Translations under genes and position numbers: made by a program | In this document: piece after piece, positions 12,307 to 52,179 of the stretch | How the letters are laid out: the number at the start of each line of letters is the position of its first letter | How positions within the stretch are numbered: the stretch's first letter is position 1 | DNA from: a virus | IMG/VR virus record: IMGVR_UViG_3300034061_003277 | Coordinates: 64,479-128,478 of that record | Direction: 5' to 3' (one strand) | Length of the DNA: 64,000 bases | Notes under the pieces: generated by a model | Database searches by the model: none | What the model was told of the DNA's origin: nothing | What the model saw: the letters and a program-made list of their open reading frames with translations, nothing else

Positions 12307-12324
12307 CCCCTAAAAATAAAATAT

Positions 12325-12495
12325 ATGAAACAAGAGTTATTTGAACAAATGCAAACTTTGTGGAATGAGTTAGTGGAAAACCATAACGAGACTACAAAAG
12401 CAGCAGCAGGTCGCGCTAGAAAAGCAGCTAGTAACCTCAAAAAAGTAATTGCAGCTTATAATAAAGCATCAGTTGCTGAAGGTAAAACTAAATAA
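12325..12495 (+). CDS. Histone H1-like (Hc1-type) small basic protein
   Basis: 56 residues from ATG 12325 to TAA 12495. Basic and helical: MKQELFEQMQTLWNELV, then KAAAGRARKAASNLKKVI. The AAGRARKA...LKK core is the pattern of Bacteroidetes Hc1/histone-H1-like proteins, which bind and compact DNA. It has 18 bp of A-rich leader and is followed immediately by a strong terminator. A DNA-condensing or virion-packaged role is inferred from family and charge. Confidence 0.6.
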   Translation: MKQELFEQMQTLWNELVENHNETTKAAAGRARKAASNLKKVIAAYNKASVAEGKTK

Positions 12496-12510
12496 GTATA
12501 CCTAAACTAA

Positions 12511-12545
12511 AAGATACGGGGGGTGTAAAATACCCCCCATCTTTA
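12511..12545 (+). terminator. Rho-independent terminator
   Basis: AGAT-ac-GGGGGGT (12512-12524) pairs with ACCCCCCATCT (12532-12542) around a 7-nt A-rich loop, followed by a short T run. It is one of the strongest hairpins in the window and closes the 11.59-12.5 kb unit. Confidence 0.8.
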
Positions 12546-12547
12546 TA
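12537..12547 (+). promoter_or_regulatory. Possible promoter -7 box, CATCTTTATA
   Basis: Overlaps the 3' arm of the terminator, 12 bp before ATG 12560, the same spacing to the start as the corresponding box in three accessory-block promoters. No TTTG at the expected -33 position, so weak. Confidence 0.25.
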
Positions 12548-12559
12548 AAAATAAACGTC

Positions 12560-22438: not shown

Positions 22439-22462
22439 AATTTGGCCTTCGGGCCATTTTTT
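22438..22462 (+). terminator. Intrinsic terminator GGCC-TTCG-GGCC
   Basis: TGGCC (22443-22447), TTCG tetraloop, GGCCA (22452-22456) and six Ts. Nearly identical to the element at 27.58 kb. Confidence 0.8.
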
Positions 22463-22472
22463 GTTATTTTTA
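22441..22472 (+). promoter_or_regulatory. Bacteroidetes-type promoter enclosing a terminator
   Basis: TTTG 22441-22444, 20-bp spacer, TATTTTTA 22465-22472; 14 bp to the ATG at 22487. The spacer contains the terminator hairpin. Confidence 0.7.
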
Positions 22473-22486
22473 CAAAAAAAAAGGTT

Positions 22487-23680
22487 ATGGCAAATTTACA
22501 AGAAGACCTATCACGAATAGGTAAACAATTAATGTTTAATGAACCGTTCTATGGTTTATTTTTATCAACACTTAATAAAGTTACAAGAAAAGACATACCA
22601 ACAGCTGGTGTGTGTAAACAAAACATTAACTATCAATTAGCAGTTAATGAAGAATTTTGGAATTCATTAGATAATGATAAAAAGAAAATTGGACTACTAA
22701 AACATGAATTACTTCATATATGTTTTAATCATTTAGAAGACAGAGAATGGTTCCCAAATCAAGAATTACATAACATAGCAGCAGATTTAGAAATTAACCA
22801 ATACCTAACACCAGAATATTACCCAACAGAAGGTATTATATTATTATCCTCATTTCCTGAACTAACTTTACCTGAAAAAGCAGGTACTAAAGTATATTAC
22901 AATCTACTGCAAAAAGCATTAAATGAAGGGACAAGTCCATCATTACAAGATTTAATGGATGGTTTAACAGGACCTGGGGAATTTGATGGTTTACACCCAA
23001 CATGGAAAGAATTTGATGGAATGAGCGAAGCTGATGCCAAATTAGCTAAAGCACAAATTGAACATCAAATTAAAGACATTGTTAACTCACAAAAAAATAG
23101 AGGATTCATACCAGCAGAATTACAAAGCTGGATTGATGGTATGTTCGAAGACTCAGAACCATCATATGATTGGAAAACATATTTTAGACGATTTTGTGGT
23201 ACATCATCAAAAACATACACTAAAAAAACAAGACGTAAACTAAACAAACGCTTCCAAGAAAACCCAGCATTAAAAATTAAAACTAAAAAGAAAATATTAG
23301 TAGGAGTCGACACATCAGGTTCAGTTGGCAATGATGATTTGATTGAGTTTTTTAGTGAGATTAATCATATGCATAAAACTGGCGTATCAATTACTATAGC
23401 TGAAGGTGACGCCAGTATCACTAATATATATGAATATAAAGGTGACATACCTAACCAAATAACAGGTAGAGGTGGTACTGATATGAATCCATTTATTGCA
23501 TATTTTAACGAGCATAAAGAGTTTAACAGTCTTATCATATTAACTGATGGTCATATAGGTGAAAATACAGTTAAGACGTTTAAACCAATGATGATGGTTA
23601 TATGCTCAAGTGGCGACGACGTAAAATCAGTAAAAGAAAATGGATGGGGCCACACAATTAAAATAGGTTTGGCTTCTTAA
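22487..23680 (+). CDS. Metallopeptidase-like/VWA protein (DUF2201, COG3864)
   Basis: 397 residues from ATG 22487. The frame opens further upstream, but a start at 22442 (TTG) would translate the terminator hairpin (giving AFGPFF), and ATG 22487 is correctly placed after the promoter. KHELLHICFNHL contains HExxH (H73, E74, H77). The C-terminal half is a VWA-like domain with a MIDAS DTSGS at 275-279 and ILTDGHIGE later. This architecture partners MoxR-type AAA+ ATPases, which is exactly the next gene. Substrate and role in infection unknown; a chaperone or remodelling complex is inferred. Confidence 0.75.
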   Translation: MANLQEDLSRIGKQLMFNEPFYGLFLSTLNKVTRKDIPTAGVCKQNINYQLAVNEEFWNSLDNDKKKIGLLKHELLHICFNHLEDREWFPNQELHNIAADLEINQYLTPEYYPTEGIILLSSFPELTLPEKAGTKVYYNLLQKALNEGTSPSLQDLMDGLTGPGEFDGLHPTWKEFDGMSEADAKLAKAQIEHQIKDIVNSQKNRGFIPAELQSWIDGMFEDSEPSYDWKTYFRRFCGTSSKTYTKKTRRKLNKRFQENPALKIKTKKKILVGVDTSGSVGNDDLIEFFSEINHMHKTGVSITIAEGDASITNIYEYKGDIPNQITGRGGTDMNPFIAYFNEHKEFNSLIILTDGHIGENTVKTFKPMMMVICSSGDDVKSVKENGWGHTIKIGLAS

Positions 23681-23713: not shown

Positions 23714-24910
23714 ATGGCAAAAGAAAAAACAAAAAAACACACAGAAGTGTCTCTGAATATTAAAGAGGCAAAACAATTCCTAAAACACATTATCAACAAT
23801 AACCGCTACCTACAGGAAAATGGTAAACTACCAGTAGCTGTTGAAGTAGTTGGTGACTCAGGTATTGGTAAAACATCAACAATTTTACAACTAGCAAAAG
23901 AAACAGATTTAAACTTTGTTAAGTTAAATTTAGCTCAAATTGAAGAGTTAGGTGATTTAGTAGGTTTTCCAATTCGCCAATTTGAAGTATGTAAAACAGA
24001 TAATGATTGTTTATGGATTGATGAACACGCAGTAGAAGAGTACACTAAACAAGGATATAAATTCACAGGCCTAAACCGTATGAGTTATTGTCCGCCTGAA
24101 TGGATTAGTGGTAAAACAAATGGAGGTATTTTATTATTAGATGACTGGAATCGCGCTGATGTAAGATTCATTCAAGCTGTTATGGAATTAATTGATAGAC
24201 AGCAGTATATTAGTTGGACATTACCTAAAGATTGGCATATCATTTTAACAAGTAACCCAGACAATGGTGATTATTTAGTTAATAGTATTGATAGTGCACA
24301 AAAAACACGATTTATATCAGTTAATTTAAAATTTGACATCAACTGTTGGAGTGAATGGGCTGAGAATGCTACAGTAGATAGTAGATGTATTAATTTCTTA
24401 TTAAAACACCCAGAACTAGTATCAACAAATACTAATTCAAGAAGTATTACAACATTTTTTAATTCAATTTCATCGTTAAATTCATTTGATAATGAATTAG
24501 GATTGATTCAAATGATTGGTGAGGGTAGTGTTGGATCTGAATTTACAACTATGTTCACAATGTTTATTAACAATAAACTAGACAAAATTATCTCACCAGA
24601 AACAATCATGACTCATGAAAGTAATGAATATATTTTAAATACTTTAAAAGGTATTATTGGTAAAGATGATAAATATAGAGCAGATTTAGCCTCAATTATA
24701 TCAACACGTTTGATTAACTTTAGCTTATTTTATTCTAAAAATAATAAAATCGAAAAGTCATATATTGATCGTTTAGCGTTTTTAATAAACGAGGAACTAT
24801 TAGCCACTGATTTAAAATATAAAGTAGTTAAATCAATCTATAATGGTGATACGTCATCATTTAAATCATTAATGTTAAATAAAACTTTAGTTACATTTTT
24901 AATGAAATAA
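23714..24910 (+). CDS. MoxR-type AAA+ ATPase
   Basis: 398 residues. Walker A GDSGIGKT at 47-54, Walker B GGILLLDDWNRAD at about 137-149, sensor-1 IILTSNPDNGDY near 175 and an arginine-finger candidate in DSAQKTRF. The insert between Walker A and B carries CPPEWISGK, usual for MoxR ATPases acting with VWA partners. It should hydrolyse ATP to remodel a target recruited by the metallopeptidase/VWA protein encoded upstream. It has its own promoter and is followed 4 bp later by an uncharacterised gene that may be the third component. Confidence 0.75.
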   Translation: MAKEKTKKHTEVSLNIKEAKQFLKHIINNNRYLQENGKLPVAVEVVGDSGIGKTSTILQLAKETDLNFVKLNLAQIEELGDLVGFPIRQFEVCKTDNDCLWIDEHAVEEYTKQGYKFTGLNRMSYCPPEWISGKTNGGILLLDDWNRADVRFIQAVMELIDRQQYISWTLPKDWHIILTSNPDNGDYLVNSIDSAQKTRFISVNLKFDINCWSEWAENATVDSRCINFLLKHPELVSTNTNSRSITTFFNSISSLNSFDNELGLIQMIGEGSVGSEFTTMFTMFINNKLDKIISPETIMTHESNEYILNTLKGIIGKDDKYRADLASIISTRLINFSLFYSKNNKIEKSYIDRLAFLINEELLATDLKYKVVKSIYNGDTSSFKSLMLNKTLVTFLMK

Positions 24911-36515: not shown

Positions 36516-36570
36516 CCTAAAATAGTATTTTAGGATTGATGCCTCTCGAAAGAGAGGCATTTCTTTTTCA
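36516..36570 (+). terminator. Tandem hairpins ending the portal-protease unit
   Basis: CCTAAAAT-AGT-ATTTTAGG (36516-36534), then ATGCCTCTC-GAAA-GAGAGGCAT (36539-36560) with a GNRA-type loop followed by a T-rich run. The second is a good intrinsic terminator. Confidence 0.8.
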
Positions 36571-36709
36571 TCCATGTGCATTTTTAAAGAATCCTCATAT
36601 ATGTATATTAGAATATACTGCTCATCTATGCAGTATCTATTAACTAACTATCTATTACGTTTCTTAATAAACGTATTTCCAAAACAAATTAATTGAGGAG
36701 AAAAACAAA
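36571..36709 (+). promoter_or_regulatory. Structured leader of the scaffold gene with strong SD
   Basis: Non-coding leader with a hairpin ATACTGC/GCAGTAT (36615-36621 with 36630-36636) and another TACGTTT/AAACGTA (36656-36662 with 36669-36675). TGAGGAGA lies just before ATG 36710 and is the one clear Shine-Dalgarno sequence I noticed in the window. No late motif here; the promoter is not identified. Confidence 0.55.
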
Positions 36710-37747
36710 ATGAGTAAAACCTTATTTAAAGAAGCAATTGCCGATGCTAGAGCCGTTAAAGAAACAGCTATAGAAAGTGCAAAGGCTGCACTTGAGGAAG
36801 CATTTACTCCACATCTTAAATCAATGTTCGCTGCAAAGTTAGAAACACTAGCTGAAAACGACGATTATTTAGGAGAAGAGGAAATGAAAGACGAGATGCA
36901 AGACGAAACCCAAAATGAAGCTGCAGAGATGGATCTTGAAGAAATCTTACGTGAACTAGCAGAACTAGAAGAATCTGAAAATTCAAACAAAATCGACGAA
37001 GAAGCCGATGAAGCGTTAGAAGAAGAAGAAACTGAAGGTATCTATGAAAACGAAGACAAAGAAGAAGAATCTGAAGAAGATTTTGACATTGAAGACCTAT
37101 CAGCTGAAGATCTTAAAGAACTTGTAGTTGATATTATGGTTGATTTAGGTTTAACTTCAGCTGAAGAAGCTGCTAAATTAAAATCTAAAGAAGCTGGCGA
37201 CGATGAAATGGAGATGGGTGATGATGAAATGGGTGAAGAAGAAGAAACTGAAACAGAGGTTGTTGACGAAATCGATCTTAACGAACTTCTTGCTGAAATC
37301 GAGCTTTTAGAAAAGAAAAACAAGAAAAAAGCTATGAAAGATGAAGAAGAGAAAGAGAAAGATGAAGAAGACAAAGAAACTAAAAAGTTGAAAGAAGATC
37401 TTCAAGAAGCTATGGATTCATTAAATGAATTGAAAAACGAATTAGATGAAGTTAATTTATTAAATGCTAAATTGCTTTACACTAATAAAATTTTCAAAGC
37501 TAAAAACTTATCTGAGACACAAAAAATAAAAGTATTATCAACATTTGATAAAGCGAGTTCTGTAAAAGAAGTTAAACTAGTATATGAAACTTTATCTGAA
37601 GGATTAACTACCTCAACTGAGAAAAAATCCCCAATTAAAGAATCATTAGGTTCAGCTTCAAAAGCAATGGGTATGGCCCCTAAAAAACCAATAATTGAAT
37701 CCAACGAAGTATTTGCACGTATGCAAAGATTAGCTGGAATTAACTAA
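36710..37747 (+). CDS. Prohead core/scaffold protein with C-terminal MQRLAGI tag
   Basis: 345 residues, very acidic: long Glu/Asp runs (EEEETEGIYENEDKEEESEE, DEEEKEKDEEDKE) and coiled coils (LKEDLQEAMDSLNELKNELD). C-terminus NEVFARMQRLAGIN is the tag, here terminal, matching the termini of the packaged-protein candidates. Position directly before the major capsid gene and composition fit the T4 gp22-type core protein around which the head assembles and which is digested by the protease. Sole gene here with a strong SD, consistent with high expression. Confidence 0.75.
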   Translation: MSKTLFKEAIADARAVKETAIESAKAALEEAFTPHLKSMFAAKLETLAENDDYLGEEEMKDEMQDETQNEAAEMDLEEILRELAELEESENSNKIDEEADEALEEEETEGIYENEDKEEESEEDFDIEDLSAEDLKELVVDIMVDLGLTSAEEAAKLKSKEAGDDEMEMGDDEMGEEEETETEVVDEIDLNELLAEIELLEKKNKKKAMKDEEEKEKDEEDKETKKLKEDLQEAMDSLNELKNELDEVNLLNAKLLYTNKIFKAKNLSETQKIKVLSTFDKASSVKEVKLVYETLSEGLTTSTEKKSPIKESLGSASKAMGMAPKKPIIESNEVFARMQRLAGIN

Positions 37748-50725: not shown

Positions 50726-51880
50726 ATGACTAATAATCTCCAAATCTTTGAATTTAATCCTTCTAGACCACGGCTGTTTAAAAGAATTATAACTCATGTC
50801 AAACAAATATCAGGTATGTTTGTTAAAGGTCAATCTTCATATAATAATATTTTAAATGAAGATATATCCAAAGGAACAACCCCCACAATAATTATTACTA
50901 AATCTCCATATGGTTCATATATAGCACCATTAGTAAACATTTACGGAGAAGAAATTAAAGAAGCTTGGAATCTCAATTATACCATCTCCACCACTGTTAA
51001 ATTAAACCGATTCCCATCTACAGTTTACACCCCAGACTTAAAAAAGTTAACTAAAAATAATGAACTAGAAAAAGATCAAATTTTTTATCATAAATCATTT
51101 CCTATAACTAAAAAAAGAACAGATTTAGCAGTATACCATTATGGAGAACATTATATCTCACAAAATATAATAGGTTATGAAAAAGGAGTAGATGAAAATG
51201 GAAATGGTATTAAAATTCCAATATATGAAAATGTAGTTAATGAAAAACCATTAGGGACTATTGAATTTGGAGCTATGGCACCTTATTTCCAAGATGCTAA
51301 AAAACCATCTAATTTATTTTCATTGTGTGTATATATAAACTTAGGCAAAACTAGATACTCATTATATACTGATTATAAATTTAAATTAGGAAGTATAAAT
51401 AAAATTGACTTTTCAATAGAGACTATTAAGCCTACTGACCTAGAAAACGAAAAATGGATAAGAGAAATAAAACTATTTGTTAATGGTGAACAACAAGAAG
51501 TAGTTCAATATTTTGGAAAAGTATGGAATAAGCATAAAAAAGAAATTGAATCTGGGATAATTGCTTCTTCTCCTAATTTTGGCCAATATGCAAATGCTAA
51601 AAGACCACCTAAAGGCCTTGAAGAATTAAAAATACATAAATCTATTATAGATTATATGGAAATACCTACAGATTGGTTAAAGTTTTTAAATAAAATTGAA
51701 TGTTCTCCTATTGTTAGTAGACATTCTAAAACATTATCTTCTAAAGATTTACCTTCTTTAAATAATGGTGTAGATTTTGGTCCTATTAATATTTATAGTA
51801 GCACAACTGAAAAAGACAAAGAAATACTCCCTGAGTATGAAAAAGCACTCCCTAACGAGGGGGCTTCACAAGATATTTAA
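50726..51880 (+). CDS. Hypothetical protein preceding the structured RNA
   Basis: 384 residues, unrecognised. It has a mixed alpha/beta sequence (KLNRFPSTVYTPDLKKLTK, FGAMAPYFQDAKKPSNLFSL, IRE IKLFVNGEQQEV) with Lys-rich character, no signal peptide and no Cys motif. Its 3' end contains an exact ATATTTATA (51789-51797) that could drive the downstream RNA. Could be a fibre-related or an RNA-linked protein; nothing in the sequence decides this. Confidence 0.5.
   Translation: MTNNLQIFEFNPSRPRLFKRIITHVKQISGMFVKGQSSYNNILNEDISKGTTPTIIITKSPYGSYIAPLVNIYGEEIKEAWNLNYTISTTVKLNRFPSTVYTPDLKKLTKNNELEKDQIFYHKSFPITKKRTDLAVYHYGEHYISQNIIGYEKGVDENGNGIKIPIYENVVNEKPLGTIEFGAMAPYFQDAKKPSNLFSLCVYINLGKTRYSLYTDYKFKLGSINKIDFSIETIKPTDLENEKWIREIKLFVNGEQQEVVQYFGKVWNKHKKEIESGIIASSPNFGQYANAKRPPKGLEELKIHKSIIDYMEIPTDWLKFLNKIECSPIVSRHSKTLSSKDLPSLNNGVDFGPINIYSSTTEKDKEILPEYEKALPNEGASQDI
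51789..51797 (+). promoter_or_regulatory. Internal late-type promoter motif, possible RNA promoter
   Basis: Exact ATATTTATA in the 3' end of the preceding gene, about 85 bp before the structured non-coding region; no motif lies closer. Confidence 0.35.
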
Positions 51881-52131
51881 CGCGTTTAGGTGAGAACCTG
51901 GACTATAGACCATCTTCTCGATTTACATGTATCTTGAGGGTGAAGGTGCCAACTGTGACCTCCTTAGCGGGAAGGAACGGTTGGAAAATTTAACTCGTCT
52001 AGTTCGAGTTAAAGTGATGCTAGTGGGGGTTTAATCCCCTTCGGGGGATTAGATTCCGGGGCCATCCGGCACAACTAGCATCTTGAAAACTAAAAAAGCT
52101 GGGGAAGTCGCGCTCCCTGGCTTTTTTTATT
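51881..52131 (+). ncRNA. Orphan structured RNA, unknown class
   Basis: A 250-bp non-coding stretch clearly richer in G/C than its surroundings with several compatible helices: AGGT-GAGA-ACCT (51888-51899, GNRA loop); CCAAC/GTTGG around 51950-51983; TTTAACTCG/CGAGTTAAA (51989-51997 with 52005-52013); and a long-range 9-bp stem GATGCTAGT/ACTAGCATC (52016-52024 with 52074-52082) enclosing TAATCCCC-TTCG-GGGGATTA (52032-52039 with 52044-52051). It ends in an intrinsic terminator. I found no match to tRNA, tmRNA, SRP RNA, RNase P, hammerhead or common riboswitch signatures. Possible promoter inside the upstream gene. Function unknown. Confidence 0.7.
52092..52129 (+). terminator. Terminator of the orphan RNA
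   Basis: AGCTGGGGA (52097-52105) pairs with TCCCTGGCT (52114-52122) with two wobble pairs, A-rich upstream and seven Ts downstream. Confidence 0.85.
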
Positions 52132-52156
52132 TTAATTAATCTATTTTACTTTCCTA

Positions 52157-52165
52157 ATATTTATA
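52157..52165 (+). promoter_or_regulatory. Late-type promoter motif ATATTTATA
   Basis: Exact motif 14 bp before ATG 52180, just after the RNA terminator. Confidence 0.6.
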
Positions 52166-52179
52166 ACAAAATCTAACAC

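Follow-up and report, generated by a model that had tools for sequence, protein, structure and literature searches.

The 299 nt between an orphan gene and the neck genes of a phage contig from IMG/VR (51881-52179 of the 64-kb window, the whole stretch of DNA analysed here) are non-coding, and their + strand folds far beyond chance. The feature is real, is unusually clear for a single sequence and is an orphan; on balance, we lean towards reading it as a lineage-specific, accessory, stand-alone late non-coding RNA. The contig, of 140,278 nt and possibly incomplete, encodes a capsid protein 57% identical to that of Flavobacterium phage immuto and 49% identical to that of Microcystis phage Mel-JY01, and its portal, terminase and sheath belong to T4-like or related families. 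By these similarities the phage appears to be far-T4-like and related to immuto; it is probably a tail-bearing virus with Flavobacterium-like bacteria as hosts.

As the original prediction had it, this gap is the longest stretch of the window free of open reading frames of at least 60 aa; the second-longest such gap, of 253 nt, holds a 56-aa ORF. The enrichment in G/C over AT-rich surroundings that had been seen by eye amounts to 0.476 for the 250 nt starting at 51881, against a genome mean of 0.32, and the tRNA region of this phage is likewise raised (0.42). For 51860-52150, the minimum free energy of the + strand is -107.5 kcal/mol, against a mean of -78.6 (sd 4.8) for dinucleotide shuffles, none of which (0/200) was as stable (z = -6.0); the minus strand folds more weakly (-83.8 kcal/mol, z = -4.6). 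When 250-nt segments were compared across the whole 140,278-nt record with correction for GC, the two largest excesses in folding (-5.3 and -4.2 sd) fell on the two segments lying over the element, and a 250-nt segment aligned on the element reaches -101.4 kcal/mol, below every segment of that scan. Since the 11 G-U pairs among the 81 pairs of the fold become A-C mismatches on the opposite strand, any constraint would act on a + strand RNA. Non-coding sequence with a stable fold on one strand is what is generally expected of a small non-coding RNA in a phage, and the element has both.

Helices were called from computed pair probabilities on the + strand of this single sequence (Table 1). At least five compatible helices had been proposed, and six independent ones are predicted with pairing probabilities of about 0.6-1.0; the GAGA (51892-51895) and UUCG (52040-52043) tetraloops are both found, and a terminator scan recovers the RNA's own terminator. 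The proposed 9-bp long-range closing stem does exist as a perfect inverted repeat (52016-52024/52074-52082), but it encloses only a 49-nt three-way junction and not the whole RNA. P2, the loop of which contains the palindrome ACAUGU, is less certain, having alternative registers and an alternative partner at 51864-51868. In the folding model the structure probably starts before 51881, with two further hairpins inside the preceding gene that overlap its last codons; a fold of 51803-52131, which takes them in, has z = -5.5. It can also be seen directly in the sequence that a 5′ strand, CUUCACAAGAUA (51864-51875), is pairable with UAUCUUG-AGG-GUGAAG, the outer pairs reaching about 11% in the model, and as one copy of direct repeat D1 UUUAACGCG (51876-51884) is able to take over part of the role of the 5′ strand in P4. 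These alternative pairings are possible candidates for switches.

Table 1. Predicted helices, signals and reading frames in and around the element (positions in the window).
Feature	Position	Strand	Description
Upstream gene	50726-51880	+	384 aa, orphan; 3′ end overlaps likely 5′ part of the RNA
Late-promoter-like motif TAATATTTATA	51787-51797	+	Perfect copy, within the final part of the upstream gene
Two 5′ hairpins (probable)	51824-51829/51833-51838 and 51843-51853/51858-51866	+	Pair probabilities 0.86-0.97 and 0.5-0.84
P1	51884-51903	+	8-bp hairpin, GAGA tetraloop; pair probability about 0.97
P2	51911-51942	+	Hairpin of 7 bp + 3 bp; pair probability 0.58-0.71
35-aa ORF inside the RNA	51927-52034	+	ATG-to-stop frame, judged non-coding
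P3	51949-51984	+	8-bp helix (0.99-1.0) around an inner 6-bp hairpin (0.65-0.99)
P4	51989-52013	+	9-bp hairpin, loop UCUAGUU; probability 0.68-1.0; perfect 9-nt inverted repeat
P5	52016-52082	+	9-bp stem on a three-way junction; probability about 0.8-1.0; perfect 9-nt inverted repeat
P5a	52026-52057	+	14 bp, UUCG loop; arm of the P5 junction
P5b	52061-52070	+	3 bp; arm of the P5 junction
P6	52092-52127	+	Hairpin of the intrinsic terminator, with a U run after it; 14 pairs, probability up to 1.0
Neck-gene late-promoter motif	52155-52165	+	25 nt before its ATG (52180)

The phage has a late-type motif, (T/A)AATATTTATA (WAATATTTATA), which lies mostly 14-32 nt upstream of start codons and which reads as the T4 late box TATAAATA in reverse complement. 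It occurs 14 times in the window, always on the + strand, against 1.58 copies expected (the sites include 3843, 8804, 26016, 30390, 47469, 52155 and 63900), and related phages carry the same motif just before the neck gene, as seen in their printed locus sequences. AYAAA usually comes next after it. The copy in the upstream gene sits 94 bases upstream of the gap, about 90 nt before the RNA core, and is the only one within 41,751 coding nt (32 genes checked), the chance expectation being about 0.001 per 100 nt of one strand. The suggestion that such a motif (placed at 51789 by the original prediction) could serve the RNA alone is credible, and signals for both boundaries, promoter motif and terminator, are present in the sequence. 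By analogy with short gene leaders, an RNA start is predicted near 51803. Transcription from there would pass through six to eight successive hairpins and stop at the P6 terminator, just before the neck-gene promoter, yielding a presumably stable transcript about 325 nt long. The motif does lie within a reading frame, however, and could be a coincidence, in which case the element would be reached by read-through from the upstream gene.

Such read-through leads to the chief rival, which we consider unlikely but far from negligible: the element may be the structured 3′ UTR and terminator of the upstream gene. Its hairpins would then protect the 3′ end of a late mRNA and block run-on into a neck gene that has a promoter of its own, and there would be no separate RNA, or one only by processing. 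The arrangement suits this explanation, as the element follows directly on the stop codon, begins within the last codons and ends in a terminator, and a single terminator hairpin stands before the neck promoter in some relatives (loci L014, L024, L036 and L041). Six to eight hairpins over 250 nt are nonetheless far beyond what a terminator needs, the promoter motif upstream is a separate one, and the element occurs in 0 of about 70 relatives.

That count comes from a comparison of syntenic loci, in which 80 related IMG/VR loci were found (neck protein 62-78% identical) and about 70 slots before the neck gene were inspected. None of these holds a GC-rich structured gap; the slot is occupied by tail-type genes of different sorts or by other cassettes, and sometimes by a simple terminator. 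In immuto and Mel-JY01, only 12-15 nt separate the neck gene from its preceding neighbour and the RNA is absent. The genes lying between the one at the PhoH position (41233, conserved) and the neck gene vary from phage to phage. Searches of PHROGs, Pfam, NCBIfam, PDB, phage records and IMG/VR gave no match to the upstream gene, and the two genes directly before the RNA found no relatives in any search, nor when used as bait. Because the stretch before the neck gene is so variable and rich in orphans, the RNA belongs to a hypervariable accessory cassette of tail genes, at the end of it, and this placement beside two orphan genes may be likened to that of accessory “moron”-like elements.

Homologues of the element itself were sought at several levels of sensitivity. 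Across the relatives’ loci, nhmmer found none, and single-sequence covariance models of P1-P4 and of P3-P5, each applied to every locus and to 50 complete records of relatives, returned only the window itself. As controls, nhmmer recovered 27 of 30 copies simulated with indels at 60% identity and also picked up, in seven relatives, the leader of gene 36710, which shows that it performs well within the loci covered. In larger collections, blastn against phages and plasmids gave only terminator or AT-rich scraps, exact 17-20 nt patterns in IMG/VR gave nothing or chance matches in coding DNA, and degenerate pseudo-peptide patterns (six per scan, in different frames) in IMG/VR and GTDB led to nothing that was confirmed. 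An 18-mer matched GTDB genomes three times, fewer than the roughly 7 matches expected by chance, and none of the three fitted the model; with the patterns tried, 84,980 species genomes gave no match, and the plasmids gave none either. These pattern scans require near-exact stretches and are far less sensitive, and the collections searched may leave out records very near this phage. The element thus seems to have no close homologue beyond its own near kin, and the neighbourhoods of its relatives yielded none. A lack of conservation in related phages had been named at the outset as evidence against a phage RNA of a new kind, and the absence of the element from some 70 syntenic slots and from 50 complete records marks it as accessory and lineage-specific rather than as a conserved phage RNA. 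The searches of these collections having returned no homologue, support from covariation is absent too.

An element unique to this phage, beside orphan neighbours and with a GC content of 0.48 in a genome of 0.32, could also be foreign DNA without present RNA function, whether the remnant of a mobile element, a retron-like or IS-derived RNA, or recombined host DNA; the orphan neighbours also fit a recent arrival of this kind. We nevertheless regard it as improbable. The reverse transcriptase (PF00078) and TnpB-type zinc (PF07282) domains are absent from the 140-kb record, so that neither the reverse transcriptase expected of a retron nor a TnpB-type partner of an IS-derived guide RNA was found, and neither the species genomes, with the patterns tried, nor the plasmids yielded a match. 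Flanking repeats of insertion type were not found either, and the intact G-U-rich helices and intact terminator speak against decay.

Membership of a known RNA family such as manA RNA, ROOL or GOLLD, in diverged form, is disfavoured, and we hold it to be very unlikely. At gathering cut-offs, Rfam 15 gave no match to any family in the whole window, self-cleaving ribozymes, introns, GOLLD and ROOL included, and ARAGORN found neither tRNA nor tmRNA there, in keeping with the earlier statement that signatures of tRNA, tmRNA, SRP RNA, RNase P, hammerhead ribozyme and riboswitches are lacking. At permissive thresholds the top model over the core was manA RNA (RF01745), with 16.5 bits and E = 0.036 in a 320-base search, and no other family came in at E < 1. 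The manA score lies well under the gathering cut-off of 55.2 bits, and the alignment breaks many pairs, forces the terminator into an internal helix and extends into the neck promoter region; the helices of manA RNA are not kept, and the element is not upstream of a manA gene. That the ATG-to-stop frame of 35 codons within the RNA encodes a small protein is barely credible, given a codon log-odds of -0.40 per codon (35-codon pieces of real genes have a mean of 0.21 and sd of 0.13, and none of those sampled scores as low), a third-position GC of 0.43 versus 0.19, no late-promoter motif before the ORF and no relatives in degenerate-pattern scans, one of them in its own frame. In our judgement this ORF is unlike a phage gene. 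The fold, the Rfam negatives and the codon usage together support the original reading of a structured, non-coding, orphan RNA.

We therefore return to a stand-alone late RNA as the favoured reading. In its favour are the fold at z = -6.0 and the strongest excess of folding in the genome, a + strand that folds much better than the minus strand and contains G-U pairs, a terminator, a perfect late motif some 90 nt ahead of the core, the missing protein signal, a GC content raised as in the tRNA region, the absence of the element from the same slot in about 70 relatives and from immuto and Mel-JY01, and the orphan genes upstream. What stands against it is that the case is built on one sequence, with neither covariation nor conservation. 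For a stable RNA bounded by promoter and terminator, action in trans would be the natural reading: in the infected cell it would bind a protein or RNA of the host or of a competitor. A more ambitious version, in which the element represents a compact class of late phage RNA not described before, with a fold that is self-associating or defined in three dimensions, and works in trans as a ribozyme, as a counter-defence RNA or as a decoy for a protein, strikes us as speculative and improbable; such a fold is suggested by the palindromic ACAUGU and CUAG in hairpin loops and by the alternative pairing of 5′ strands with P2 and P4. The undescribed class of ribozyme or regulatory RNA that had been envisaged would need conservation and covariation, and the collections searched yielded no homologue; covariation being beyond the reach of a single sequence, the claim to a new class is unproven, and the labels riboswitch, ribozyme and “new class” are unsupported. 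Strong folding without relatives does not suffice for a new RNA class.

Comparison with RNAs of other phages places the element by kind rather than by descent. T4 makes two small RNAs of unknown role, RNAC and RNAD, from its tRNA region, and at the date of the review cited a function had yet to be characterised for any regulatory RNA of T4 that acts in trans (PMC3014915). The likeness, of kind only and by description, is that of a small non-coding RNA in a T4-related phage; unlike RNAC and RNAD, the element lies in the late structural region with a late-type motif of its own. GOLLD and ROOL are elaborately folded RNAs of phages and prophages, of unknown function, that usually lie near tRNA islands and show family covariation, GOLLD often exceeding 800 nt (PMC12286853). 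In contrast, the element is a simple hairpin array of about 250-325 nt, matches neither Rfam model and lies 98 kb from the tRNA-Leu/Met pair of this phage. In Staphylococcus phage K, RNA sequencing revealed small and long intergenic non-coding RNAs, at least one of which (lnc001) has its own promoter (PMC9241854); the element is likewise intergenic, but it is predicted from sequence alone whereas the phage K RNAs were sequenced. The element is a clearly bounded candidate for which start, stop and helices are all predicted, and its accessory slot may be of the type in which elements for counter-defence and host adaptation tend to accumulate.

Several other features of the genome were noted along the way. 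The 5′ leader of gene 36710 (36565-36712), just before the major capsid gene 37776, is conserved: the relatives in which nhmmer found it are L020, L018, L013, L004, L051, L024 and L048. It forms two hairpins, with five pairs showing compensatory changes, followed by an invariant ATTTCCAAA stretch, and so has the covariation that the element at 51881 does not; Rfam has no match for it, neither in the window nor in the loci of four of the seven relatives. The 56-aa ORF in the gap 12307-12559 is lysine/alanine-rich (MKQELFEQ...AEGKTK) and histone-tail-like, and a strong terminator follows it. A second stable spot, at about 5200-5700 of L092, was considered as a sister RNA and rejected (z = -1.6): it consists of a gene lying in a GC-rich patch (L092:5085-5402), whose basic product of 105 aa repeats an AT-hook-like GRPV motif, and a spacer of about 330 nt of GC-rich non-coding DNA (L092:5403-5740). 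An IscB candidate at 22442 likewise fell away, the match being a metallopeptidase/VWA-type DUF2201 protein; at 22442-23680 and 23714-24910 an ATPase is paired with a DUF2201 protein of metallopeptidase/VWA-like type, and Pfam disagrees with the label “HNH endonuclease” that PHROG 1314 puts on the DUF2201 protein. Phage tRNA genes for Leu, Met and Val (L090:17783-18056 and L091:9283-9926) were found by both ARAGORN and Rfam, and a fourth tRNA match, at L091:9283-9349, by Rfam only.
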